This document shows positions 2,476 to 55,780 of a stretch of 64,000 nucleotides of DNA, one piece after another. Position 1 is the first letter of the stretch, and each line of letters begins with the position of its first letter. The translations under genes and the position numbers were made by a program. The stretch is from the NCBI RefSeq assembly GCF_032854445.1, contig NC_088295.1:558501-622500 (forward strand), written 5' to 3'. The DNA comes from Liolophura sinensis. Lineage: Eukaryota; Mollusca; Polyplacophora; Chitonida; Chitonidae. A model generated the notes under the pieces. The model was not told the DNA's origin and did no database searches. It saw only the letters and a program-made list of their open reading frames with translations.

Positions 2476-23045
<20,570 letters not shown>

Positions 23046-34397: not shown

Positions 34398-34845
34398 ATG
34401 ACCGAAACGATTCGCAAGACGATGAAGGCTCTGGTGAAGAGAGAAGAGAAAGAGTCGTACGTTCTTCAGGACATCCCAGTGCCGGAGCCGACAGGGGACG
34501 AGGTTCTACTGAAAGTGGAATCTGTGTCCATATGCGGCTCGGACATCAGCCTGTACAAGTGGACAGAGATGGCTAAAGTGATTGCTACCATTCCCTTTAT
34601 CCCAGGTCACGAGTGCGCAGGTGTGGTGGTCAAGGCTGGGCCCCAATGTCCCCTACCCCTTGGAACTAGGGTCGGGGTGGAGAATCACTTCTACTGTGGG
34701 GACTGCTACCAGTGTACCCACAACCAGAAGGAGATCTGTCAAAATATGGGGCAGTACGGGCACGGCAGAAAGACATTTCACGGGGGGTGTTCCCAGTACA
34801 GTATTGTCTCCGCCAAATACTGCTACCCGCTCAAGACAAATATCA
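34398..34845 (+). CDS. dehydrogenase exon 1
   Basis: It encodes residues 1-149, from MTETIRKTMKALV through the catalytic and structural zinc sites to YCYPLKTNI. The donor is GTAGGT at 34846. The last ~31 nt and the donor are the first unit of the 79-bp array that follows. Confidence 0.92.
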
Positions 34846-37800
34846 GTAGGTACATACCTCATGCCTTTCTCATGCAACCGACCCCTTAAACCCAAATACT
34901 GCTACCCGCCCAAGACAAATATCAGTAGGTACATACCTCATGCCTTTCCCATGCAACCGTCCCCTTAAACCCAAATACTGCTACCCGCCCAAGACAAATA
35001 TCAGTAGGTACATACCTCATGCCTTACTAATGCAAGCGTTCCCTTAAACCCAAATACTGCTACCCGCTCAGAACAAATATCAGTAGGTACACACCTCATG
35101 CCTTTCCCATGCAACCGTCCCCTTAAACCCAAATACTGCTACCCGCCCAAGACAAATATCAGTAGGTACATACCTCATGCCTTACCAATGCAAGCGTTCC
35201 CTTAAACCCAAATACTGCTACCCGCTCAAGACAAATATCAGTAGGTACATACCTCATGCCTTACCAATGCAAGCGTTCCCTTAAACCCAAATACTGCTAC
35301 CCGCCCAAGACAAATATCAGTAGGTACATACCTCATGCCTTACCAATGCAAGCGTTCCCTTAAACCCAAATACTGCTACCCGCTCAGAACAAATATCAGT
35401 AGGTACATACCTCATGCCTTTCCCATGCAACCGTCCCCTTAAACCCAAATACTGCTACTCACCCAGAACAAATATCATTAAGCGGACCTAAGTGACAAGG
35501 TCTTTCAGCAACCTGCGGATGGTCGTGGGTTTCCACAGGGCTTTGCCTGGTTTCCACCCACCCTAATGCTGGCCGCCGTCGCATAAATGAAATATTCTTG
35601 AGTATGGCGTAAGACACCAATCAAATAAATAAATAAATCAAATATCATTAAGTACATATCACATGCCTTCCCCATACAAACACCCCCTTCAAAACAAACG
35701 CTACCCGCTCAGCATAAGCACCAGAATGTACGTACAGCCATGATGTTCCCAATACAACCGTCCTCAGAAAAATCCAACCTCTACCCACTTACGGTAAACA
35801 CCAGAATGTACATACGGGCATGATGTTCCCAATACAACTCCCGGGTTAAACGTAGCATCATTTGTGATCAGATATAGTCGTATGACTTAACTGTCCATAA
35901 CGTACATGATATACACCCACATTAATAAAATAAGTGTATAACTCCATATCTTTGACTTTTCACAGATGTATATGACCTCTACATTTTCAGTACAGTTATG
36001 AAATGTTCAATCTGGTTTAAAGCTATGGTCTCTTTAATCCCAAATTCGCTTGCCTACAAGCTGGTGACAAATAATTATGTCAGATATGCAATCTAGACAG
36101 CGACATGTAACGCACATATGGTTGTCTCCCTTTAGCTGCAGAGGACGCGGTGTTACTGGAGCCCCTTGGGGTTGCCCATAATGCCATAGAACGCCTGGAG
36201 GTGGCGGGAGAAGATGTGCTTGTCATCGGATGTGGGCCTGTCGGGCTGCTGGCCATAGGGGTAGCCAAAGCCATAGGCGCTTCAAGGTATTTCTATGTAA
36301 ACATTTGCAATTACCGCGCATGAAAAGTCGACTTACAACCTCTGACGTTTGAAAGCATAAGCGGGTCGTTGTCATATGAAATCAAAGCCATCAGGAATGT
36401 TTTGTATCAGTGATGAAGGAAATAATGGACAGAATAGGATTCATGGAATCTTTTGTCAACTGGCGACCATTGTCGTTTTCTACGTTTTCTGTGATCTATG
36501 AGTCGTAAGAGGGCGTTTTTACATGCGTAAATGAAGTTTGTTGGGTCAGACCCCTCATGAGTAGGCTACAGTTACTTAGTATCGGTTCAGGCCTAGGCTA
36601 TGTAAGCCCAGCTATTATTCACGAACTATGCCCGACTCCGAGATAGTGGTCTTGATTGTGTTTGTCATTCTTACAGAATCACAGATGATGGCATGATTCT
36701 GTTGTCGTCCTTACAGGTTTACGGGTGTTAACATGACTCTGTTTGTCATTCTTACAGAGTCACCGGTGTTGACATGATTGAGTTTGTCATCCTTACAGAG
36801 TCACAGATGTTGACATGATTCTGTTTGTCATCCTTACAGAGTTACGGGTGTTGACATTGATGAAAGTCGCTTGGAATTGGCCAAAACGTTAGGCGCCGAT
36901 CGGCTGATTAATTCACTGAAAGAAAATGTGAAGGAGGTAAGGTAAAAGTATGTCATGTCTACAGCTCATAAGAGACAAAGAGGTAAAGGTTTGATGCTAT
37001 GTGCCTTCTCGCAGTCAGTAAAAAAGCAGAGATTATTTGACTGGTGTTTCACATTCGACGGCGGCCAGCATTATGGTGGGAGGAAACCTGCAGAGCCCGG
37101 GGGAAAGCCACGACCATCCGCAGTTTGCCGACAGACCTTCCCCCTTACGGCCGAAGAGGAAGCCGGCATGAGCTGAACTTGAAGTCAAAGAGGCTCTTGG
37201 TGAAAGGCTCTGGGGTCATTGCGCCATGACATGCGCCTTCTCTCAGTCCAGTAAAGAAACAAAGACGTAATGGTTTGACGCTACATACCGTCTCTGAGTT
37301 TGATAAAGGAACAAAGACATAATGGTCTGACGCTACGTGCCTTCTCTCAGTCTAAGAAAGAAACAAAGAGGGAAGGGTTTGACGCTACGTGCCGTCTCTG
37401 AGTTTGATAAAGAAACAAAGAGGGGGTGGTTTGACGCTACGTGCCTTCTCTCAGTCTAAGAAAGAAACAAAGAGGGAATGGTTTGACGCTACGTGCCGTC
37501 TCTCAGTCTAACAAAGAAACAAAGAGGGAAGGGTTTGACGCTACTTCCCTTTTATAAGCCTAGTAAAGAAGCGAAGCGGTAAGGGTCTGACGTTGCATGC
37601 CTCCTCTCAGTCTAGTAAAGAAATAAAGTGGGAGTGGTTTGACGCTACGTGCCTTCTGTCAGTTTACTAAAGACACACAGTGGTATTAGTTAGACGCTAT
37701 GTGTCTTCTCTCAGTTCAGTAAAGGAAGAAAGTTGTATTGGTTTGACGTTGCATGTCTTCTCTCAGTTTACTATAGAAACAACGAAGGAATGGTTTGACG

Positions 37801-38888
37801 CTGTGCGCCTTCTCTACAGAGTGTAAAAGAGTCATTTCTGTAATGAAAATATGTATATATACATCAGTGATTAGGCCTAATCGCCACTGATTGATTGATT
37901 CATTCATTCATTCATTGAGTGACTGATTGATTGATTAATGGAGGAAACCGACTAAGTGGGAATGTACTGTCTTTTCCTTCAAGGCATGACTTGTCTCTAC
38001 TCCACAGACAGTGCTGAAGCAAACCAATGGGGACGGAGTGGGCCGAATTGCCGAATGTAGTGGGGCGGCGGCCATGATCAGCTCTATGTTTACTTACCTC
38101 CGAAAGGGTGGTCAAGTGGTCATGGTGGGCCTGCCAAAGCAGCCCGTCCACGTAGAAGATCCTCTGCCAAACATAGGTAAGGGGATATCATGGTGGGCCT
38201 GCCTTAACAGCCCGTCCACGTAGAAGATCCTCTGCCAAACATAGGTAAGGGGATATCATGGTGGGCCTGCCTTAAAAGCCCGTCCACGTAGAAGATCCTC
38301 TGCCAAACATAGGTAAGGGGATATCATGGTGGGCCTGCCTTAACAGCCCGTCCACGTAGAAGATCCTCTGCCAAACATAGGTAAGGGGATATCATGGTGG
38401 GCCTGCCTTAACAGCCCGTCCACTTAGAAGATCCTCTGCCAAACATAGGTAAGGAGACATCACTGTGGGCCTGCCAAAACAGTCCGTCCACTTAGAAGAT
38501 CCTCTGCCAAACATAGATAAGGTGACATCATTGTGGGCCTGCCAAAACAGGCTCACTGTGTACCACATTTACAACGGCTATAGGTTACACTTACTGTTAA
38601 TATCTAGCGATTTAGCTTTTGATTTTATACAGTGACGAGTGTATCTCAAAAGCGCATCATGACGACGCCATTTCGCTTCTTCCAGTGTTCAAAGGTTTAA
38701 CGCTGAAAACAGTTCACGGGCGGCAGATATTCCACACGTGGGAAGAGGCGGAAAGGCTAACATCTGAGAAAAAAGTGAAGACTGCGGCCGTCATCTCTCA
38801 CCGGTTCCCCATGTCCAGGTTCGAGGAGGCATTTGACGCTCTGTTCAGCGGGAAGGCCTGTAAGATTGTGCTGGACCCGCACAGCTAG
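34398..38888 (+). CDS. zinc-dependent medium-chain dehydrogenase, threonine/polyol dehydrogenase type (5 exons)
   Basis: Joined exons 34398-34845, 36136-36286, 36840-36936, 38008-38176 and 38686-38888 give 355 codons plus stop, with all phases consistent (1, 2, 0, 1). The protein has catalytic zinc ligands C46 (ICGSD), H71 and E72 (PGHECAGVV) and E158 (LLEPLG). The structural-zinc cysteines are C100, C103, C106 and C114 (CGDCYQC...C). A Rossmann GCGPVG lies at 181-186, with VDID at the end of the second strand, which favours NAD. The C-terminal part has VFKGLTLKTVHGRQIFHTWE, as in bacterial threonine dehydrogenase (341 residues). Members oxidise a secondary alcohol of threonine, polyols or sugar acids. 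Pairing with a sugar-acid dehydratase suggests a sugar-acid substrate, which is inference. A longer N terminus from 34251 is possible but disfavoured by the TATA box. Confidence 0.93.
34815..35468. repeat. 79-bp array built from the exon 1 3' end and its splice donor
   Basis: The unit is AAATACTGCTACCCGCTCAA, GACAAATATCAGTAGGTACA, TACCTCATGCCTTTCCCATG, CAACCGTCCCCTTAAACCC. The first unit starts inside exon 1, and about seven more copies lie in the intron. Every intronic copy through about 35400 keeps ATCAGTAGGT, so the intron holds several copies of its own 5' splice site. Diverged copies continue at 35653-35870 beyond a SINE. Confidence 0.95.
35483..35638 (+). mobile_element. 5'-truncated SINE with 14-bp target duplication
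   Basis: The element runs CGGACCTAAGTGACAAGGTC ... ATATTCTTGAGTATGGCGTA and a CAAATAAATAAATAAAT tail. It is flanked by CAAATATCATTAAG at 35469-35482 and again at 35639-35652. It inserted into the 79-bp array of dehydrogenase intron 1. Confidence 0.92.
36136..36286 (+). CDS. dehydrogenase exon 2
   Basis: The acceptor is TCTCCCTTTAG and the donor GTATTT. It encodes AEDAVLLEPLGVAHNAIERL and the GCGPVG dinucleotide-binding loop through AIGAS. Exon 1 ends in A and this exon supplies CT, making Thr150. Confidence 0.92.
36655..36862. repeat. 41-bp array of the intron 2 splice acceptor
   Basis: About 4-5 copies of TGATTCTGTTTGTCATCCTT, ACAGAGTCACAGATGTTGAC. Each has the TCNTTACAG acceptor and the first bases of exon 3, and the last copy runs into the genuine exon at 36840. 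Confidence 0.93.
36840..36936 (+). CDS. dehydrogenase exon 3
   Basis: The acceptor is CCTTACAG and the donor GTAAGG. The 97 nt encode VTGVDIDESRLELAKTLGAD and RLINSLKENVKE. The Asp after the second Rossmann strand points to NAD. Confidence 0.92.
36955..37825. repeat. ~52-bp array in intron 3, interrupted by a SINE
   Basis: The unit is GGTTTGACGCTACGTGCCTT, CTCTCAGTCTAAGAAAGAAA, CAAAGAGGGAAT, about 12 copies. The first recognisable copy starts close behind the exon 3 donor. A SINE occupies 37031-37228. Confidence 0.9.
37031..37228 (-). mobile_element. SINE, minus orientation, in dehydrogenase intron 3
   Basis: ACTGGTGTTTCACATTCGAC, GGCGGCCAGCATTATGGTGG, ACCTTCCCCCTTACGGCCGA and GGTCATTGCGCC follow the order of the family copy at 29.1 kb. 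The AT-rich tail is mostly lost. Confidence 0.85.
38008..38176 (+). CDS. dehydrogenase exon 4
   Basis: The acceptor is CTACTCCACAG and the donor GTAAGG. It encodes TVLKQTNGDGVGRIAECSGA through GGQVVMVGLPKQPV and EDPLPNI, ending in phase 1. Its last 57 nt seed the array that follows. Confidence 0.92.
38119..38560. repeat. 68-bp array built from the exon 4 3' end and its splice donor
   Basis: The unit is GTAAGGGGATATCATGGTGG, GCCTGCCTTAACAGCCCGTC, CACGTAGAAGATCCTCTGCC, AAACATAG. The first copy is exon 4 itself, followed by about five to six intronic copies. Most keep ACATAGGTAAGG, the exact exon-donor junction, while the most distal has ATAAGG. Intronic copies carry in-frame stops. Confidence 0.95.
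38686..38888 (+). CDS. dehydrogenase exon 5 (terminal)
   Basis: The acceptor is TTCGCTTCTTCCAG. It encodes VFKGLTLKTVHGRQIFHTWE through ISHRFPMSRFEEAFDAL and ends DPHS-stop. The HRF and FEEAFDAL segments are typical of the C terminus of threonine/polyol dehydrogenases. Confidence 0.93.
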
Positions 38889-39409: not shown

Positions 39410-42135
39410 GTGAGGGTAGTACTCTATCGGCTGGTGCTTACCTTTCAATCGCAAAAACACAACAGGTGCAGGGGTTGAGATCTAGTGACGGGTGCTTGTC
39501 ATTCAATCGCTAGGACACGTGGTACTGGTCAAGTGGCTGGTCCTTGTCTTTCATTCGCCAGGACACAACAGGTGCAGAGGCTATGGTCTAGTAGCTGGTG
39601 CTTGTCTTTCAATCGCTAGGACACACCAGGGGCAGGGGCTGTGGTCTAGTAGCTGGTGATTGTCTATTAATCGCTAGGGCACACCAGGGGCAGGGGTTGT
39701 GGTCTGGTGACTTGTGATTGTATTTCAATCGCCAGGACACAACAGGTGCAGGGGCTGTGGTCTAGTAGCTAGTGATTGTCTATTAATCGCTAGGGCACAC
39801 CAGGGGCAGGGGTTGTGGTCTGGTGACTTGTGATTGTATTTCAATCGCCAGGACACAACAGGTGCAGGGGCTGTGGTCTCGTAGCTGGTGATTGTCTATT
39901 AATCGCCAGGACACAACAGGTGCAGGGGTTGTAATCTAGTGACTTGTGATTGTCTTTGAATCGCTAGGACACACCAGGAGCAGGGGCAGTGATCTATTAA
40001 CTGGTGTTTGTCATTCAGTGGCTAGGACACACCAAGTGCAGGGGTTGTGGTCTAGTGCCTGGGGCTGGTCTCTTTAAATTACTAGGACACACGATGTGCA
40101 GGGGCTGTGGTCCAGTGACTTGTGATTGTCTTTTAATCGCTAGGACACAACAGGTGCAGGGCCTGTGGTCTAGTGCCTGGGGCTGGTCTCTTTAAATTGC
40201 TAGGACACACGATGTGCAGGGGTTGTGGTCCAGTGACTTGTGATTGTCTTTCAATCGCTAGAACACAACCGGTGCAGGGGCTGTGGTCTAGTGCCTGGGG
40301 CTTGTCTTTCAATCGCTAGGACACAACAGGCGCAGAGGTTGTGGTCTAGTGGCTGGGGCTTGTCTTTCAATCGCTAGGACACAACTGGTGCAGAGGCTGT
40401 GGTCCAGTGACTTGTGATTGTCTTTCAATCGCCAGGACACAACAGGTGCAGAGGCTGTGGTCTAGTGCCTGGGGCTTGTCTTTCAATCGCTAGGACACAA
40501 CTGGTGCAGAGGTTGTGGTCTAGTGGCTGGGGCTTGTCTTTCAATCGCTAGGACACAACAGGTGCAGGGGCTGTGGTCCAGTGACTTGTGATTGTCTTTC
40601 AATCGCTAGGACACAACAGGTGCAGGGGCTGTGGTCTACTGCCTGGGGCTTGTCTCTTTAAATCGCTAGGACACAACAGGTGCAGGGGCTGTGGTCTGGT
40701 GACTTGTGATTGTCTTTCAATCGCCAGGACACAACAGGTGCAGGGGCTGTGGTCTAGTGCCTGGGGCTTGTCTCTTTAAATCGCCAGGACACAACAGGTG
40801 CAGGGGCTGTGGTCCAGTAACTTGTGATTGTCTTTCAATCGCTAGGACACAGCAGGTGCAGGGGCTGTGGTCTAGTGCCTGGGGCTTGTCTTTCAATCGC
40901 TAGGACACAACAGGTGCAGAGGTTGTGGTCTAGTGGCTGGGGCTTGTCTTTCAATTGCTAGGACACAACAGGTGCAGAGGTTGTGGTCCAGTGACTTGTG
41001 ATTGTCTTTAAATCGCTAGGACACAACAGGTGCAGGGGCTGTGGTCTAGTGCCTGGGACTTGTCTTTCAATCGCTAGGACACAACAGGTGCAGAGGTTGT
41101 GGTCTAGTGGCTGGGGCTTGTCTTTCAATCGCTAGGACACAACAGGTGCAGAGGTTGTGGTCCAGTGACTTGTGATTGTCTTTAAATCGCTAGGACACAA
41201 CAGGTGCAGGGGCTGTGGTCTACTGCCTGGGGCTTGTCTTTCAATCGCTAGGACACAACAGGTGCAGAGGTTGTGGTCTAGTGGCTGGGGCTTGTCTTTC
41301 AATCGCTAGGACACAACAGGTGCAGAGGTTGTGGTCTAGTGGCTGGGGCTTGTCTTTCAATCGCCAGGACACAACAGGTGCAGGGGCTGTGGTCCAGTGA
41401 CTTGTGAATGTCTTTCAATCGCCAGGACACAACAGGAACAAGGGTAGTGGTCCAGTGGCTGGCGTTTGTCTTTCAATCGCTAGGACACACCGGGAGCACT
41501 GGTTGTGGTCCAATGACTTGTGATTGTCTTTCAATCGCTAGGACACAACAGGTGCAGAGGCTGTGGTCTCGTGGCTGGGGCTTGTCCCTTTAAATCGCTA
41601 GGACACACGACGTGCAGGGACTGTGGTCCAGTGACTTGTTATTGTCTTTCAATCGCTAGGACACAACAGGTGCAGAGGCTGTGGTCTCGTGGCTGGGGTT
41701 TGTCTTTCAATCGCTAGGATACAACAGGTGCAGGGGTTGTGGTCTCGTGGCTGGGGCTTGTCTCTTTAAATCGCTAGGACACACGACGTGCAGGGGCTGT
41801 GGTCCAGTGACTTGTTATTGTCTTTCAATCGCTAGGACACAACAGGTGCAGAGGTTGTGGTCCAGTGACTTGTGATTGTCTTTCAATCGCTAGGACACAA
41901 CAGGTGCAGGGGCTGTGGTCCAGTGACTTATGATTGTCTTTCAATCGCTAGGACACAACAGGTGCAGAGGCTGTGGTCTCGTGGCTGGGGCTTGTCTTTC
42001 ATTCGCCAGGACACAACAGGTGCAGAGGCTGTGGTCTCGTGGCTTGGGCTTGTCTTTCACTCGCTAGGGCACACCAGGTGATTGGGTAGTGGTCTTTGAG
42101 CTGGTGCTTGTCTTTCAGTCGCTAGGACACGCCAG
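39410..42135. repeat. 58-bp satellite, about 46 copies
   Basis: The unit is GCTTGTCTTTCAATCGCTAG, GACACAACAGGTGCAGGGGC, TGTGGTCTAGTGCCTGGG. Alternating versions (GACTTGTGATT and CCTGGGGCTTG) give a dimeric look. The short plus-strand frames in it are artefacts. Confidence 0.95.
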
Positions 42136-42324
42136 GAGCAGTTTTAAAACCGGCCTCGGGTAGGGACATTTTAGATTCCCCTGCGACCAGTCAACGACGC
42201 TTGTGTGGCGCAATCTAACATTCACTGAACCCACTTGTCTTCCATCAATATGGTGAGCATATCTGTACGTGTGAGATCGGAAATGTCGTCAGTAACTGGC
42301 CAAAGTTCGATGGTTTTTGCCGGG

Positions 42325-42450: not shown

Positions 42451-42677
42451 ATATGTATAATAAAATAGAGTAAAAGAGAGTAAAAAAGAATATCGTAACA
42501 ACCACAAAGTAAAACACTATGTATTCCACACACAAGACTCACCCAAGTGACTCCTTTGCGTGGGAATATGCTCCCTTTCAATCTCTATTTATTGTCAGAC
42601 CTTATTTAGTATAGTTAAGTATTGAAAGTTTTGAAAATAAAAATGTTTTTGAAAAAGGTATAACTTTTACTAAATTC

Positions 42678-45600
42678 CATACAGGCATTAGAAGTAGCTG
42701 TAGAAGTGTACCTGTATGGTCGAGGTGTTCCCTGTTTGCACAGCACATTTTTTCGTGTAGGGACAATTCCATACAGGCATTAGAAGTAGCTGTGGAAATG
42801 TACCTGTATTATCGAGGGTTCCCTGTTTGTACAGCACATTGTTATCTGTAGAGACTATTCCATACAGGCATTAGAAGTAGATGTGGAAGTGTACCTGTAT
42901 TATCGAGGTTGCCCTGTTTGTACAGCACATTGTTTTGTGTAAAGACTATTCCATACAGGCATTAGAAGTTGCTGTGGAAGTGTAACTGTGTTATCGAGGT
43001 TGCCCTGTTTGTACAGCACATTGTTTTGTGCAGAGACTATTCCATACAGGCATTAGAAGTAGATGTGGAAGTGTACCTGTATTATCGAGGTTGCCCTGTT
43101 TGCACAGCACACTGATTTGTGTAGAGAATATTCCATACAGGCATTAGAGGTAGCTGTGGAAGTGTACCTGTATTATCGAAGGTGCCCTGTGTGTACAGCA
43201 CATTGTTTTGTGTAGAGAGTATTCCATACAAGCATTAGAGATAGCTGTGGAAGTGTACCTGTATTATCGAGGGTGCCCTGTTTGTACAGCACATTGTTAT
43301 CTGTAGAGACTATTCCATACAGGCATTCGAAGTAGATGTGGAAGTGTACCTGTATTATCGAGGGTGCCCTGTTTGCACAGCACATTGTTTTGTGTAGAGA
43401 GTATTCCATACAGGCATTAGAAGTAGATGTGGAAGTGTACCTGTGTTATCGAGGGCCTGTTTGCACAGCACATTGTTTTGTGTAGAGACTACTCCATACA
43501 GGCATTAGAAGTAGATGTGGAAGTGTACCTGTATTATTGAGGGTGCCCTGTTTGCACAGCACATTGTTTTGTGTAGAGACTATTCCATACAGGCATTAGA
43601 AGTAGATGTGGAAGTGTACCTGTATTATCGAGGGTGCCCTGTTTGCACAGCACATTGTTTTGTGTAGAGACTATTCCATACAGGCATTAGAAGTAGATGT
43701 GGAAGTGTACCTGTATTATCGAGGGTGCCCTGTTTGCACAGCACATTGTTTTGTGTAGAGACTATTCCATACAGGCATTAGAAGTAGCTGTGGAAGTGTA
43801 ACTGTATTATCGAAGGTGCCTTTTTTGCACAGCACATTGTTTTGTGTAGAGACTATTCCATACAGGTATTACAAGTAGCTGTGGAAGTGTACCCGTATTA
43901 TCGAGAGTGCCCTGTTTGCACAGCACATTTTTTCGTGTAGGGACAATTCCATACAGGCATTACAAGTTGTTGTGGAAGTGTACCTGTATTATCGAGGGTG
44001 CCCTGTTTGCACAGCACATTGTTTTGTGTAGAGACTATTCCATACAGGCATTAGAAGTAGATGTGGAAGTGTACCTGTATTATCGAGGGTGCCCTGTTTG
44101 CACAGCACATTGTTTTGTGTAAAGACTATTCCATACAGGCATTACAAGTTGTTGTGGAAGTGTACCTGTATTATCGAGGGTGCCCTGTTTGCACAGCACA
44201 TTGTTTTGTGTAGAGACTATTTCATACAGGCATTAGAAGTAGATGTGGAAGTGTACCTGTATTATCGAGGGTGCCCTGTTTGCACAGCACATTGTTTTGT
44301 GTAAAGACTATTCCATACAGGCATTAGAAGTAGATGTGGAAGTGTACCTGTATTATCGAAGGTGCCTTTTTTGCACAGCACATTGTTTTGTGTAGAGAGT
44401 ATTCCATACAGGCATTAGAAGTAGATGTGGAAGTGTACCTGTATTATCGAGGGTGCCCCGTTTGCACAGCACATTGTTTTGTGTAGAGACTATTCCATAC
44501 AGGCATTAGAAGTAGCTGTAGAAGTGTACCTGTATTATCGAAGGTGCCTTTTTTGCACAGCACATTGTTTTGTGTAGAGACTATTCCATACAGGCATTAG
44601 AAGTAGATGTGGAAGTGTAACTGTATTATCGAAGGTGCCTTGTTTGCACAGCATATTGTTTTGTGTAGAGACTATTCCATACAGGCATTAGAAGTAGATG
44701 TGGAAGTGTACCTGTATTATCGAGGGTGCCCTGTTTGCACAGCACATTGTTTTGTGTAGAGACTATTCCATACAGACATTAGAGGTAGATGTGGAAGTGT
44801 ACCTGTATTATCGAGGGTGCCCTGTTTGTACAGCACATTGTTTTGTGTAGAGAGTATTCCATACAGGCATTAGAAGTAGATGTGGAAGTGTACCTGTATT
44901 ATCGAGGGTGCCCTGTTTGCACAGCACATTGTTTTGTGTAGAGACTATTCCATACAGGCATTAGAAGTAGATGTGGAAGTGTACCTGTATTATCGAGGGT
45001 GCCCTGTTTGCACAGCACATTGTTTTGTGTAGAGACTACTCCATACAGGCATTAGAAGTAGATGTGGAAGTGTACCTGTATTATCGAGGGTGCCCTGTTT
45101 GCACAGCACATTGTTTTGTGTAGAGACTATTCCATACAGGCATTAGAAGTAGATGTGGAAGTGTACCTGTATTATCGAGGGTGCCCTGTTTGCACAGCAC
45201 ATTGTTTTGTGTAGAGACTATTCCATACAGGCATTAGAAGTAGATGTGGAAGTGTACCTGTATTATCGAGGGTGCCCTGTTTGCACAGCACATTGTTTTG
45301 TGTAGAGACTACTCCATACAGGCATTAGAAGTAGATGTGGAAGTGTACCTGTATTATCGAAGGTGCCTTGTTTGCACAGCACATTGTTTTGTGTAGAGAA
45401 TATTCCATACAGGCATTAGAAGTAGATGTGGAAGTGTACCTGTATTATCGAGGGTGCCCTGTTTGCACAGCACATTGTTTTGTGTAGAGACTATTCCATA
45501 CAGGCATTAGAAGTAGCTGTGGAAGTGTAACTGTATTATCGAAGGTGCCTTTTTTGCACAGCACATTGTTTTGTGTAGAGACTATTCCATACAGGTATTA

Positions 45601-48600
45601 GAAGTAGCTGTGGAAGTGTACCCGTATTATCGAGAGTGCCCTGTTTGCACAGCACATTTTTTCGTGTAGGGACAATTCCATACAGGCATTACAACTTGTT
45701 GTGGAAGTGTACCTGTATTATCGAGGGTGCCCTGTTTGCACAGCACATTGTTTTGTGTAGAGACTATTCCATACAGGCATTAGAAGTAGATGTGGAAGTG
45801 TACCTGTATTATCGAGGGTGCCCTGTTTGCACAGCACATTGTTTTGTGTAGAGACTATTCCATACAGGCATTAGAAGTAGATGTGGAAGTGTACCTGTAT
45901 TATCGAGGGTGCCCTGTTTGCACAGCACATTGTTTTGTGTAGAGACTATTCCATACAGGCATTAGAAGTAGATGTGGAAGTGTACCTGTATTATCGAAGG
46001 TGCCTTTTTTGCACAGCACATTGGTTTGTGTAGAGAGTATTCCATACAGGTATTAGAAGTAGATGTGGAAGTGTACCTGTATTATCGAGGGTGCCCTGTT
46101 TGCACAGCACATTGTTTTGTGTAGAGACTATTCCATACAGGCATTAGAAGTAGATGTGGAAGTGTACCTGTATTATCGAGGGTGCCCTGTTTGCACGGCA
46201 CATTGTTTTGTGTAGAGACTATTCCATACAGGCATTAGAAGTAGCTGTAGAAGTGTACCTGTATTATCGAAGGTGCCTTTTTTGCACAGCACATTGTTTT
46301 GTGTAGAGACTATTCCATACAGGCATTAGAAGTAGATGTGGAAGTGTAACTGTATTATCGAAGGTGCCTTGTTTGCACAGCATATTGTTTTGTGTAGAGA
46401 CTATTCCATACAGGCATTAGAAGTAGATGTGGAAGTGTACCTGTATTATCGAGGGTGCCCTGTTTGCACAGCACATTGTTTTGTGTAGAGACTATTCCAT
46501 ACAGGCATTAGAAGTAGATGTGGAAGTGTACCTGTATTATCGAGGGTGCCCTGTTTGCACAGCACATTGTTTTGTGTAGAGACTATTCCATACAGGCATT
46601 AGAAGTAGCTGTGGAAGTGTACCTGTATTATCGAGGGTGCCCTGTTTGCACAGCACATTGTTATCTGTAGAGACTATTCCATACAGGCATTAGAAGTAGA
46701 TGTGGAAAGTGTACCTGTATTATCGAGGGTGCCCTGTTTGCACAGCACATTGTTTTGTGTAGAGAGTATTCCATACAGGCATTAGAAGTAGATGTGGAAG
46801 TGTACCTGTATTATCGAGGGTGCCCTGTTTGCACAGCACATTGTCTTGTGTAGAGACTATTCCATACAGGCATTAGAAGTAGATGTGGAAATGTACCTGT
46901 ATTATCGAGGGTGCCCTGTTTGCACAGCACATTGTTTTGTGTAGAGACTATTCCATACAGGCATTAGAGGTAGATGTGGAAGTGTACCTGTATTATCGAG
47001 GGTGCCCTGTTTGCACAGCACATTCTTTTGTGTAGAGACTATTCCATACAGGCATTAGAAGTAGATGTGGAAGTGTACCTGTATTATCGAGGGTGCCCTG
47101 TTTGCACAGCACATTGTTTTGTGTAGAGACTTTTCCATACAGGCATTAGAAGTAGATGTGGAAGTGTACCTGTATTATCGAAGGTGCCTTTTTTGCACAG
47201 CACATTGTTTTGTGTAGAGAGTATTCCATACAGGCATTAGAAGTAGATGTGGAAGTGTAACTGTATTATCGAAGGTGCCTTGTTTGCACAGCACATTGTT
47301 TTATGTACAGACTATTCCATACAGGCATTAGAAGTAGATGTGGAAGTGTACCTGTATTATCGAGGGTGCCCTGTTTGCACAGCATATTGTTTTGTGTAGA
47401 GACTATTCCATACAGGCATTAGAAGTAGCTGTGGAAGTGTAACTGTATTATCGAAGGTGCCTTTTTTGCACAGCACATTGTTTTGTGTAGAGAGTATTCC
47501 ATACAGGTATTACAAGTAGCTGTGGAAGTGTACCTGTATTATCGAGAGTGCCCTGTTTGCACAGCACATTTTTTTCGTGTAGGGACAATTCCATACAGGC
47601 ATTACAAGTTGTTGTGGAAGTGTACCTGTATTATCGAGGGTGCCCTGTTTGCACAGCACATTGTTTTGTGTAGAGACTATTCCATACAGGCATTAGAAGT
47701 AGATGTGGAAATGTACCTGTATTATCGAGGGTGCCCTGTTTGCACAGCACATTGTTTTGTGTAGAGACTATTCCATACAGGCATTAGAAGTAGATGTGGA
47801 AGTGTACCTGTATTATCGAGGGTGCCCTGTTTGCACAGCACATTGTTTTGTGTAGAGACTTTTCCATACAGGCATTAGATTTTTTTTTTTTTTTTTTTTT
47901 TTGATTGGTGTTTTACGCCGTACTCAAGAATATTTACAGGCATTAGAAGTAGATGTGGAAGTGTACCTGTATTATCGAAGGTGCCTTTTTTGCACAGCAC
48001 ATTGTTTTGTGTAGAGAGTATTCCATACAGGCATTAGAAGTAGATGTGGAAGTGTAACTGTATTATCGAAAGTGCCTTGTTTTGCACAGCACATTGTTTT
48101 GTGTAGAGACTATTCCATACAGGCATTAGAAGTAGATGTGGAAGTGTACCTGTATTATCGAGGGTGCCCTGTTTGCACAGCACATTGTTTTGTGTAGAGA
48201 CTATTCCATACAGGCATTAGAAGTAGATGTGGAAGTGTAACTGTATTATCGAAGGTGCCTTTTTTGCACAGCACATTGTTTTGTGTAGAGAGTATTCCAT
48301 ACAGGTATTACAAGTAGCTGTGGAAGTGTAACTGTATTATCGAGGGTTCCCTGTTTGCACAGCACATTGTTTTGTGTAGAGACTATTCCATACAGGCATT
48401 AGAAGTAGCTGTGGAAGTGTACCCGTATTATCGAGAGTGCCCTGTTTGCACAGCACATTTTTTCGTGTAGGGACAATTCCATACAGGCATTACAAGTTGT
48501 TGTGGAAGTGTACCTGTATTATCGAGGGTGCTCTGTTTGTACAGCACATTGTTTTGTGTAGAGAGTATTCCATACAGGTCTTAGAAGTAGCCGTAGAAGT

Positions 48601-48658
48601 GTACCTGTATGATCGAAGGGCGCCCTGTTTGCACAGCCAATTTTTTTTTGTAGAGATT
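42678..48658. repeat. 91-bp satellite, about 65 copies, with 19-unit higher-order repeat
   Basis: The unit is CCATACAGGCATTAGAAGTA, GATGTGGAAGTGTACCTGTA, TTATCGAGGGTGCCCTGTTT, GCACAGCACATTGTTTTGTG, TAGAGACTATT. A rare variant (TTTTTTCGTGTAGGGACAAT) occurs near 43925, 45655, 47575 and 48465. The first gap is 1730 bp, which is 19 units. A 55-bp SINE tail interrupts it at 47880. Confidence 0.96.
47880..47934 (-). mobile_element. 55-bp SINE 3'-end insertion with 13-bp target duplication
   Basis: T23 followed by GATTGGTGTTTTACGCCGTA and CTCAAGAATATT: the last 32 bp of the common SINE with its A-tail, in minus orientation. It is flanked by TACAGGCATTAGA at 47867-47879 and 47935-47947. Confidence 0.93.
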
Positions 48659-53329: not shown

Positions 53330-55780
53330 AAAAGTATGGTTCAACAAAATGCTGAAATTGATTTTGGCTGGATGTCATTGGGAAATATGACTTATACATA
53401 TTGACGATGTGATGGTTTTTGGCAAGTCGTAAGATGAAGCCATCAAAAATCTTAGGAAAATTTTTGACAGACTTAAACTGGCTGGTTTGAAATTAAAGCC
53501 TAAGAAATGTCACCTATTCCAGAAACAAGTTAACTATTTGGGTCATGTCGTGTGTGAAGAAGGAGTGGCAACTGATTATGAGAAAACTGCAGCGATAAAG
53601 AACTGGCCAACTGCAACCTGTCTAAGATAAGTGAGAAGTTTTCTGGGGTTAGTTTCATGCTAGAGAAGATATTAGAGATTTTGGAACAATAAGTAAATCG
53701 TTACACAAGCTGACAGAAAAGTATAAAGAGATCAAATGAACAGAAGAATGTGAGATAGCTTTCCAGAGCAATGCTCCTGTCCTGTCATTTTCAAGTTCAC
53801 AGGGTGACTAAATATTACGTACTGATGCTAGTGGCACAGGCATTGGTGCGGTATTATCTCAGCTTCAAGGAGGTGAAGAAAAAGTTATAGCGTATGCTAG
53901 TGGGACTCTCGGTAAAGCTGAACGTATCTATTGTGTCACTCGAAGAGAGTTGTTAGCTGTGGTGACATAGGTAAAACAGTTCTAACATTACCTGCATGGC
54001 AGACACTTTATTGTGAGGACTCATCACAACCCTCTAAGGTGGTTACTGAATTTCAAAGGACCGGAAGGTCAAATGGCTTGGGTTACTCAGTACATTTGAT
54101 TTTGAGGTCATTCATCGGCCTGGAAAACTCCATGGAAATGCGCTTTCTAGAACTTCTTGTGGTTGTTGTGAGAAGATTGGATAAAAAAATTGCACCTGTG
54201 AACGATGTTCAGTCTGCTAAAACAGAAAATATACAAAATTCAGGTGTGCAGCGCTAACAGATGATTCTGGTCCTATGGAGACTGTTGTTATTATGATTAA
54301 GTGGGTGCCTAAGAATAGGGAGCATAAACAGAAGAGTTTTAAACAAAGAAAATCTAAACAGATGCCTCACACTGCTCAGGTTCAAGCGATCATCACAAGA
54401 AGTCGAGTACCGGCTTGTTCATCTTCGGTTGATGAAAATTGGTCTAGCTCAGAGTCGGCAGATTCACAGATGGAAAATACCGACTTGAGGTGGATAATCA
54501 GTGTGGAAGTGACAGCTGAAAGTGTTACTGGTCTAAGAGGGACAGATTAACTTTCCATGAAGGTGTACTTTATCGCAAGTGGGAAAATGAGAAAAATTAC
54601 TATGTTAAGTGACAAATAATATTACCAGTACAGTATCGTAAAGAAGTGTTTTTACAGCTGCATGCTTCAAAAACAGCTGGTCACTTTGGTGTTTGGAGGT
54701 CTATACCAAAGATTAGGGAACGTTATAACTGGTATGGAATGACCAATGATATTCGCCTTTGGTGTAAACGGTGTGATGTGTGTAGCACTTGAAAACCTCC
54801 TGGTCACAAGTCCAAAGCTCCACTGAAACAGTACAGCGTTGGTGCACCACTGGAAAGGGTATCCATCGATGTTTTGATACCACGTCCTAAAACCGGTAAT
54901 GATAATCAATATATCCTTGTCATACAGGATTATTTTACCACGTGGGTTGAGGCTTATGGTATTTCTAATCACGAAGCTATTGCTATTGTTGACAATGGCA
55001 TTCAGGTTTAGATACAACACAATCCGTAAACATCCAATAAAAATCGAATATTACACAATGTGTTTATCTTACTTTGTGACACAAGCAAATATATTGCTGA
55101 CATGTGCAATCCTACAGCGCACACCTATCCATTATTTCGTAGAATTTTCAGTCAAAGATTTTCCACGAAATGTGCCAAATTCTGGGCATACAGAAAACAA
55201 GCACAACTTCTTATCATCCTCAGTCAAACGGTATGGTGGAAAGATTCAACAGAACACTTGAAGGTGTTTTGGTTAAAATGGTTAACGGGACTCAAAAATG
55301 AATCAACGGGACTGGGATCAGCAGTTACCATTTGCAGTTATGGCATATAGATCTTCATTACATGATGTTACAAGAGACTCCTGCAATGATGATGTTAAAA
55401 GGGAGATAAATCTTCCACTCGATCTTCTTACAGATCGACCAAGATTAACGTCTGGTTTGGAAGGCACAGAATATACAGCTGAGTTGAGGCAGGGACTGGG
55501 GCAAGCACATGAAGGGGCACGGGAACAGCACTGGAGGAATACTATATGACAGAAACGGAATTACATCGTAAGAGGAAAGCAGAAAATTTTCCAAGTTGGT
55601 GACCTAGTCTGGCTATATGACACGTCTCGGAAGACGAACTATACACCGAAGCTTGCTTGCCAGTAGAACTCTGACTTGGGACTTATTCATCACGTTATGA
55701 GACTACTCGACATTTACAGAAGAAGATAAGACAATATAAGATTCATTGTCCGAGGACGAACAAACCTTAGGAAGGGGTGA
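53330..55780 (+). pseudogene. degenerate Ty3/gypsy retrotransposon pol (RT-RNase H-integrase)
   Basis: Reading the plus strand across many stops and frameshifts shows, in order: the end of the RT with HIDDVMVFGKS (53403-53408 encode the Asp pair; the usual Tyr is His) and YLGHVVCEEGV; an RNase H segment with LRTDASGTGIGAVLSQ and RRELLAVV; the integrase HH-CC zinc region (54655-54790); part of the catalytic core; and HPQSNGMVERFNRTLEG. Gag, protease and most of the RT are missing. A purine tract AGGAAGGGG ends at 55777 directly before TGATGTGACG, which looks like the start of the 3' LTR. It cannot encode working proteins. Confidence 0.88.
55024..55143 (+). repeat. ~120-bp segment inside the integrase, duplicated at 55988-56107
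   Basis: ACATCCAATAAAAATCGAAT, GACACAAGCAAATATATTGC and CACACCTATCCATTA recur with few changes at 55988-56107, within the presumed LTR. It interrupts the integrase core, so it is an insertion or gene-conversion patch. Confidence 0.8.

Follow-up and report, generated by a model that had tools for sequence, protein, structure and literature searches.

Splice junctions multiplied in tandem: boundary-spanning minisatellites in a dehydrogenase gene and other genes of the chiton Liolophura sinensis

Introduction

How does a gene remain readable when the end of an exon, together with its splice donor, is repeated many times in the adjoining intron? The question is raised by a dehydrogenase gene of the MDR family in the chiton Liolophura sinensis, located in a stretch of 64,000 nucleotides of contig NC_088295.1 (assembly GCF_032854445.1, positions 558,501 to 622,500 of the forward strand), which is referred to here as the window and whose own numbering is used throughout. 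The initial annotation of this DNA proposed that the end of exon 1 and its donor are repeated about eight times in intron 1, that the copies act as potential decoys, and that copy number, through reading frames broken by the use of distal donors, could tune the level of functional transcript. In amphioxus, ‘mirage’ minisatellites with units of 10–160 bp have been reported in Adh3, in the globins BflGb6 and BflGb9, in troponin C and in PGBD5 (PMC3087553, PMC3902484). The chiton array is very probably a boundary-spanning minisatellite of this kind, born of ordinary minisatellite growth across splice junctions and tolerated through the use of the exon-proximal site; similar arrays are found at two further junctions of the same gene and at junctions of other genes.

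Results

The array at the exon 1 donor

A 79-bp unit, repeated 8.4 times with 93% matches, was detected by Tandem Repeats Finder (TRF) at 34813–35477 of the forward strand (mirage 1). As revealed by a unit-by-unit reading, unit 1 consists of 33 nt of exon 1 and 46 nt of intron 1; the real donor GT (34846–34847) directly follows the end of exon 1 at 34845, and the donor ATCA/GTAGGT (the slash marks the exon end) is intact in 8/8 full units, the donors of all seven full decoys being identical to the real one. The sequence ATCAGTAGGT is present in all eight full copies, and copy 9 carries ATCATTAAG in its place. In 100 dinucleotide shuffles of the gene region the top TRF score was 54 (periods of at least 15), compared to 1106 for the array, and a genome search with the 79-bp unit gave at least 8 matches, all of those listed falling within the array. 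The first in-frame stop past the exon 1 donor, a TAA at 34887, lies upstream of donor 2, and therefore every distal exon 1 donor takes in that stop. On the number of copies, on the exact junction contained in the unit, on the decoy nature of the copies and on the loss of the reading frame at distal donors, the initial annotation was right.

Beyond the full units, about three degenerate ones (9–11; 35478–35840, forward strand) extend the array to approximately 35840, as read by eye, and ATCA/GTAGGT is found in none of them. Copy 9 is split by a short interspersed nuclear element (SINE) at 35483–35638 of the forward strand, recognised by sequence reading and by a family search. The family is large: a first look gave 4504 candidates and, when 40 were scored, 40/40 matched at 90–100% identity. 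By eye, the 14-bp repeat CAAATATCATTAAG flanks the insertion at 35469–35482 and 35639–35652; the insertion with its target-site duplication (35469–35652 in all), located in a degenerate copy, provides a relative age for the distal end of the array. Since ATCATTAAG is contained in both flanking repeats, copy 9 had presumably already lost its donor before the SINE was inserted.

The gene product and two further arrays

Five exons of the forward strand join in frame to encode 355 aa: the coding part of exon 1 (34398–34845; 448 nt, ending in phase 1), exon 2 (36136–36286), exon 3 (36840–36936), exon 4 (38008–38176) and exon 5 with the stop codon (38686–38888). The product has the Pfam domains ADH_N and ADH_zinc_N; its top NCBIfam match is L-threonine 3-dehydrogenase, with 295 bits under an equivalog cut-off of 380, and its top PDB match is the L-threonine 3-dehydrogenase 3gfb (E 9.5e-63, residues 8 to 354 aligned). 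It is an MDR dehydrogenase, described here as TDH-like, which makes no claim on the substrate.

A scan for repeated 40-mers flagged exactly 3/8 junctions of this gene, namely the donors of exons 1 and 4 and the acceptor of exon 3. At this acceptor, a 41-bp unit is repeated five times (mirage 2; 36653–36857, forward strand; TRF and sequence reading), with four decoy TTACAG motifs, starting at 36671, 36711, 36752 and 36793, upstream of the real acceptor at 36834–36839; the five sites, the last of which is the real one, have similar pyrimidine-rich lead-ins, and the AG signal is kept in 4/4 decoys. At the exon 4 donor, the 68-bp unit of mirage 3 (6.3 copies; 38120–38550, forward strand; TRF and unit reading) takes in 57 nt from the end of exon 4 and 11 nt of intron and contains the donor ATAG/GTAAGG, whose GT is kept in 4/5 full decoys. 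The array in intron 3 (52 bp, 11.2 copies; 37235–37815, forward strand; TRF and 40-mer scan) is an ordinary minisatellite, clear of the splice junctions.

The alignment with 3gfb is gapless across the exon 1/2 junction, and none of the junctions shows an insertion of repeat size; the closest gap, of one residue, lies a few residues before the exon 4/5 junction. This argues that the enzyme would be made by splicing at the first exon 1 donor, the last exon 3 acceptor and the first donor of exon 4.

Boundary arrays in other genes

The frequency of such arrays was estimated on 172 exons recognised with the protein-family models Mito_carr, ADH_zinc_N, Cpn60_TCP1, proteasome and Ras, including 400 bases on each side. 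The exons came from 32 of the loci L001–L041 and from 140 pieces (L042–L181); L001, L004, L010, L011, L017, L022, L025 and L031 were left out as intronless, long-frame or duplicate, and L035 is the window itself. Before drops, the matches fetched were 70/80 for Mito_carr, 40/50 for Cpn60_TCP1, 20/21 for proteasome and 11/11 for ADH_zinc_N; for Ras, 150 matches were scored, of which 40 were fetched by following the list through its shorter open frames (up to 118 aa). Splice sites were predicted from the open frame and a consensus, with one exon lacking a predicted donor and two an acceptor, and 48/172 family matches contain a stop, most likely due to overrun into the intron. A junction was scored as duplicated when a 40-mer with at least 8 nt on each side recurred nearby at 33/40 or better.

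The automatic scan flagged 9 donors and 4 acceptors. After review by eye, boundary-spanning duplications were retained at 8/171 donors (L015, L047, L086, L094, L097, L140, L169 and L176) and 3/170 acceptors (L015, L021 and L069, the latter having no more than two copies, at a distance of 298 bp), that is 11/341 sampled junctions, or 3.2% (Wilson interval 1.8–5.7%). Dinucleotide shuffles of the 140 pieces, three each with both match ends tested, gave 0/840. Two flags were dropped because of mispredicted sites: the L095 donor lay inside an intronic array, and at the L008 acceptor the array ends at the likely real site without exon sequence. Left out of the count, too, are arrays at L095 and L145 that extend up to the acceptor but contain hardly any exon sequence or none. 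For each of the eight donor arrays in the sample, no more than 10 nt separate the end of the protein-family match from the junction of the first copy; at L086 the prediction had taken the equal second copy as donor. One exon of L015 carries an array at either end, and the array at L021, read on the reverse complement, consists of 22 copies of a 65-bp unit upstream of a mitochondrial carrier exon.

Two other observations concern the same sample. The neighbouring paralogues L037 and L039 have a common donor array at another exon, outside the count, which may be older than the gene duplication. Around short TCP1 exons, open frames of 458–779 codons were found at G000:C1:72038329, G000:C6:7824721 and G000:C1:56789306; a boundary array adjoins the exon at the first of these (L097), and array read-through may explain such long frames.

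Behaviour of the decoy sites

Nine donor arrays with units in register, two in the window and seven elsewhere, were pooled; L094 was excluded as its units are out of register. GT is kept in 34/36 pooled decoy donors. Mismatches at the GT (2/72) did not differ from those in the rest of the unit (131/2940; p = 0.77), in a test whose power over nine donor arrays is low. Within that low power, the decoys diverge in a neutral-like manner, with neither purging nor preservation of the sites being seen. By a generic donor matrix, applied to arrays other than L021 and L094, 26/36 decoys score the same as the real site and two score higher, both in L140, a proteasome-family exon (507–933, oriented) in which the likely real donor GTTCGT is below the decoys GTACGT and GTATGT. 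At L021, the AG is intact in 21/21 upstream decoy acceptors. As for the reading frame, a distal donor meets an in-frame stop, located before donor 2, in 7/9 in-register donor arrays; at L015 the stop is met from donor 3 on, and at L086, whose period is divisible by 3, there is no stop within the array.

Where the arrays arise

Duplicated 40-mers were found in 11, 14, 19 and 18 of 171 introns at distances of +80, +140, +200 and +260 past the donor; ahead of the acceptor, the numbers are 9, 10, 13 and 12 of 170. Junctions (donors 8/171) are thus less occupied by duplicates than introns (11 to 19 of 171), as would be expected if arrays arose anywhere in introns and sometimes covered a junction; with this higher occupancy of introns, the idea of splice junctions as hotspots of array birth is not supported. 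Donors and acceptors did not differ significantly in frequency (8/171 and 3/170, p = 0.22). A growth gradient, with divergence rising with distance from the exon, was also considered and rejected: it is suggestive in the window (units 9–11 and the exon 4 array) and inconsistent elsewhere, L169 showing the opposite trend.

Repeats and other features of the window

The window (1–64000) is unusually rich in repeats, with TRF arrays covering 53% of it; their coverage is 6.9% in the 140 pieces and 9.8% in 36 loci from L001–L041. A 58-bp array of 45 copies (39526–42141) lies past the stop codon of the dehydrogenase gene, and a very large 91-bp minisatellite of about 65 units, with an interruption, also lies downstream of the gene (42674–48656). 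A likely class-III aminotransferase exon (2804–3046, reverse strand; Pfam PF00202, 26 bits, below the cut-off of 30.5) has a 38-bp array of 4.4 copies (3127–3292) close upstream, which stops short of the matched stretch. Retroelement fragments at 53433–55347 of the forward strand give matches to reverse transcriptase and to integrase, each slightly under its Pfam cut-off.

Discussion

The arrangement of the exon 1 array suggests how it may have formed. A stretch across the boundary between exon 1 and intron 1 would have been duplicated in tandem, and slippage or unequal exchange could then have multiplied it within the intron. Of the copies, just the one next to the exon would be kept as real exon by selection, since growth on the intronic side leaves the coding sequence intact. 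We infer that the spliceosome most likely picks the exon-proximal site, that is the first donor or the last acceptor, in which case the remaining copies would simply be intron. The same process would be general in the genome, and two further junctions of the dehydrogenase gene, the acceptor of exon 3 and the donor of exon 4, would have been struck too.

Without a positional choice of the first donor, array genes would often misfire. Either the exon-proximal site wins by its position or a large share of transcripts is wasted, and we favour the former as probable, because 11/341 sampled junctions are duplicated and because the splicing of amphioxus mirages is reported to be regular: that of the globin and Adh3 mirages has been described as undisturbed (PMC3087553; PMC3902484). 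On the other hand, three points weigh against this explanation. Site strength alone cannot account for the correct choice, 28/36 decoys being at least as strong as the real donor; acceptor decoys come earlier in the transcript than the real site, an order that a simple first-AG rule does not easily accommodate; and the rate of 3.2% is rough, since it was obtained from several exons per gene in a single genome, with no control genome for comparison.

A different possibility, in line with the regulatory role put forward by the initial annotation, is that the array works as a rheostat, in which distal donors are partly used, premature stops lead to mRNA decay and copy number sets the enzyme output. 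The identity of all seven full decoys with the real donor, the TAA at 34887 that comes with every distal donor, and the stops found ahead of donor 2 in 7/9 in-register donor arrays and ahead of donor 3 in L015 (L021 being left out) would fit such a function. However, stops are expected anyway in intronic sequence, the array of L086 is free of stops and has a period divisible by 3, the decoy GTs show no sign of preservation in the low-power comparison given above, and normal splicing is reported for the amphioxus mirages (PMC3087553). The regulatory role is possible but unsupported, and as an explanation of the array we consider it highly improbable. It also appears very unlikely that the internal copies are real alternative exon ends or seeds of new introns, as in the intron-gain model put forward for the amphioxus globin mirages (PMC3087553): the units do contain intact donors or acceptors, but the five dehydrogenase exons, once joined, encode a protein whose alignment with known structures shows no insertion of repeat size, and no new intron was seen in the gene. 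Finally, tandem repeats are hard to assemble, and collapsed or duplicated reads could in principle generate an array; yet the units differ by substitutions, one of them has a SINE insertion, similar arrays recur at unrelated genes, and the array of about 1 kb is short if compared to the HiFi reads of the published assembly, averaging 8,347 bp (PMC11068029), which makes an artefact extremely unlikely.

The preferred explanation, a mirage minisatellite tolerated through exon-proximal splicing, is in agreement with several features of the amphioxus arrays, as far as these are reported. The chiton units span the exon–intron boundary (33 + 46 nt, 57 + 11 nt and the exon 3 acceptor); AG or GT signals are kept in many copies (8/8 exon 1 units, 4/5 exon 4 and 4/4 exon 3 decoys); and both 5′ and 3′ boundaries are hit, with two donors and one acceptor in the window and 8/171 and 3/170 in the sample. 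Undisturbed splicing is a further trait of mirages; in the chiton, the protein alignment would be consistent with normal splicing. Mirages are also marked by length polymorphism or somatic instability, and the chiton arrays were read in one assembly. Unlike the amphioxus cases described, the chiton arrays are found in a mollusc, at 3.2% of sampled junctions, with three in one gene and up to 22 units (L021), whereas two BflGb6 haplotypes of amphioxus have 3 and 6. While the anatomy given by the initial annotation holds, it missed the two further boundary arrays of the gene, one of them at an acceptor, the recurrence across the genome and the relation to a known kind of minisatellite.

Intron gain by tandem genomic duplication of AGGT-containing sequence, as reported for example for potato RdRp (PMC4974935), likewise involves tandem copies carrying splice sites; there, the duplicate is proposed to create a new intron, while the chiton arrays multiply a junction that was already there, and gain of an intron was not seen. 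The minisatellite in intron 1 of an earthworm metallothionein gene (PMC12783039) fills the intron with tandem units, as does the array in intron 3 of the chiton dehydrogenase; unlike in the chiton boundary arrays, exon sequence or splice sites within the units are not mentioned in the available part of that report. A literature search over titles and the beginnings of abstracts, mainly in open-access sources with subscription journals largely outside, gave no report of boundary arrays in chitons or other molluscs, and the word ‘tandem’ is absent from the main text, as available, of the Liolophura japonica genome paper (PMC11068029). By these limited searches, the occurrence of mirages outside cephalochordates, in a new phylum, and their abundance in one genome are new. 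This suggests that mirages are not a cephalochordate peculiarity.

Work on how the spliceosome chooses between identical sites usually relies on engineered minigenes. The chiton genome offers many natural cases in which near-identical sites differ only by position, at both donors and acceptors, and the junction counts offer a measure of how often tandem duplication crosses splice junctions. If the rate of 3.2% held over the 28,233 gene models of the L. japonica genome paper (PMC11068029), boundary arrays would number in the thousands. We may speculate, with considerable doubt, that in thousands of arrays of near-identical competing sites, such as L021 with its 21 consensus-like acceptors before the real one, a strict rule of exon proximity keeps splicing accurate, and that differences in copy number carry over to the output of some genes, making expression vary between individuals. 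Boundary arrays are, in any case, common enough in the chiton genome for natural tests of splice-site choice.
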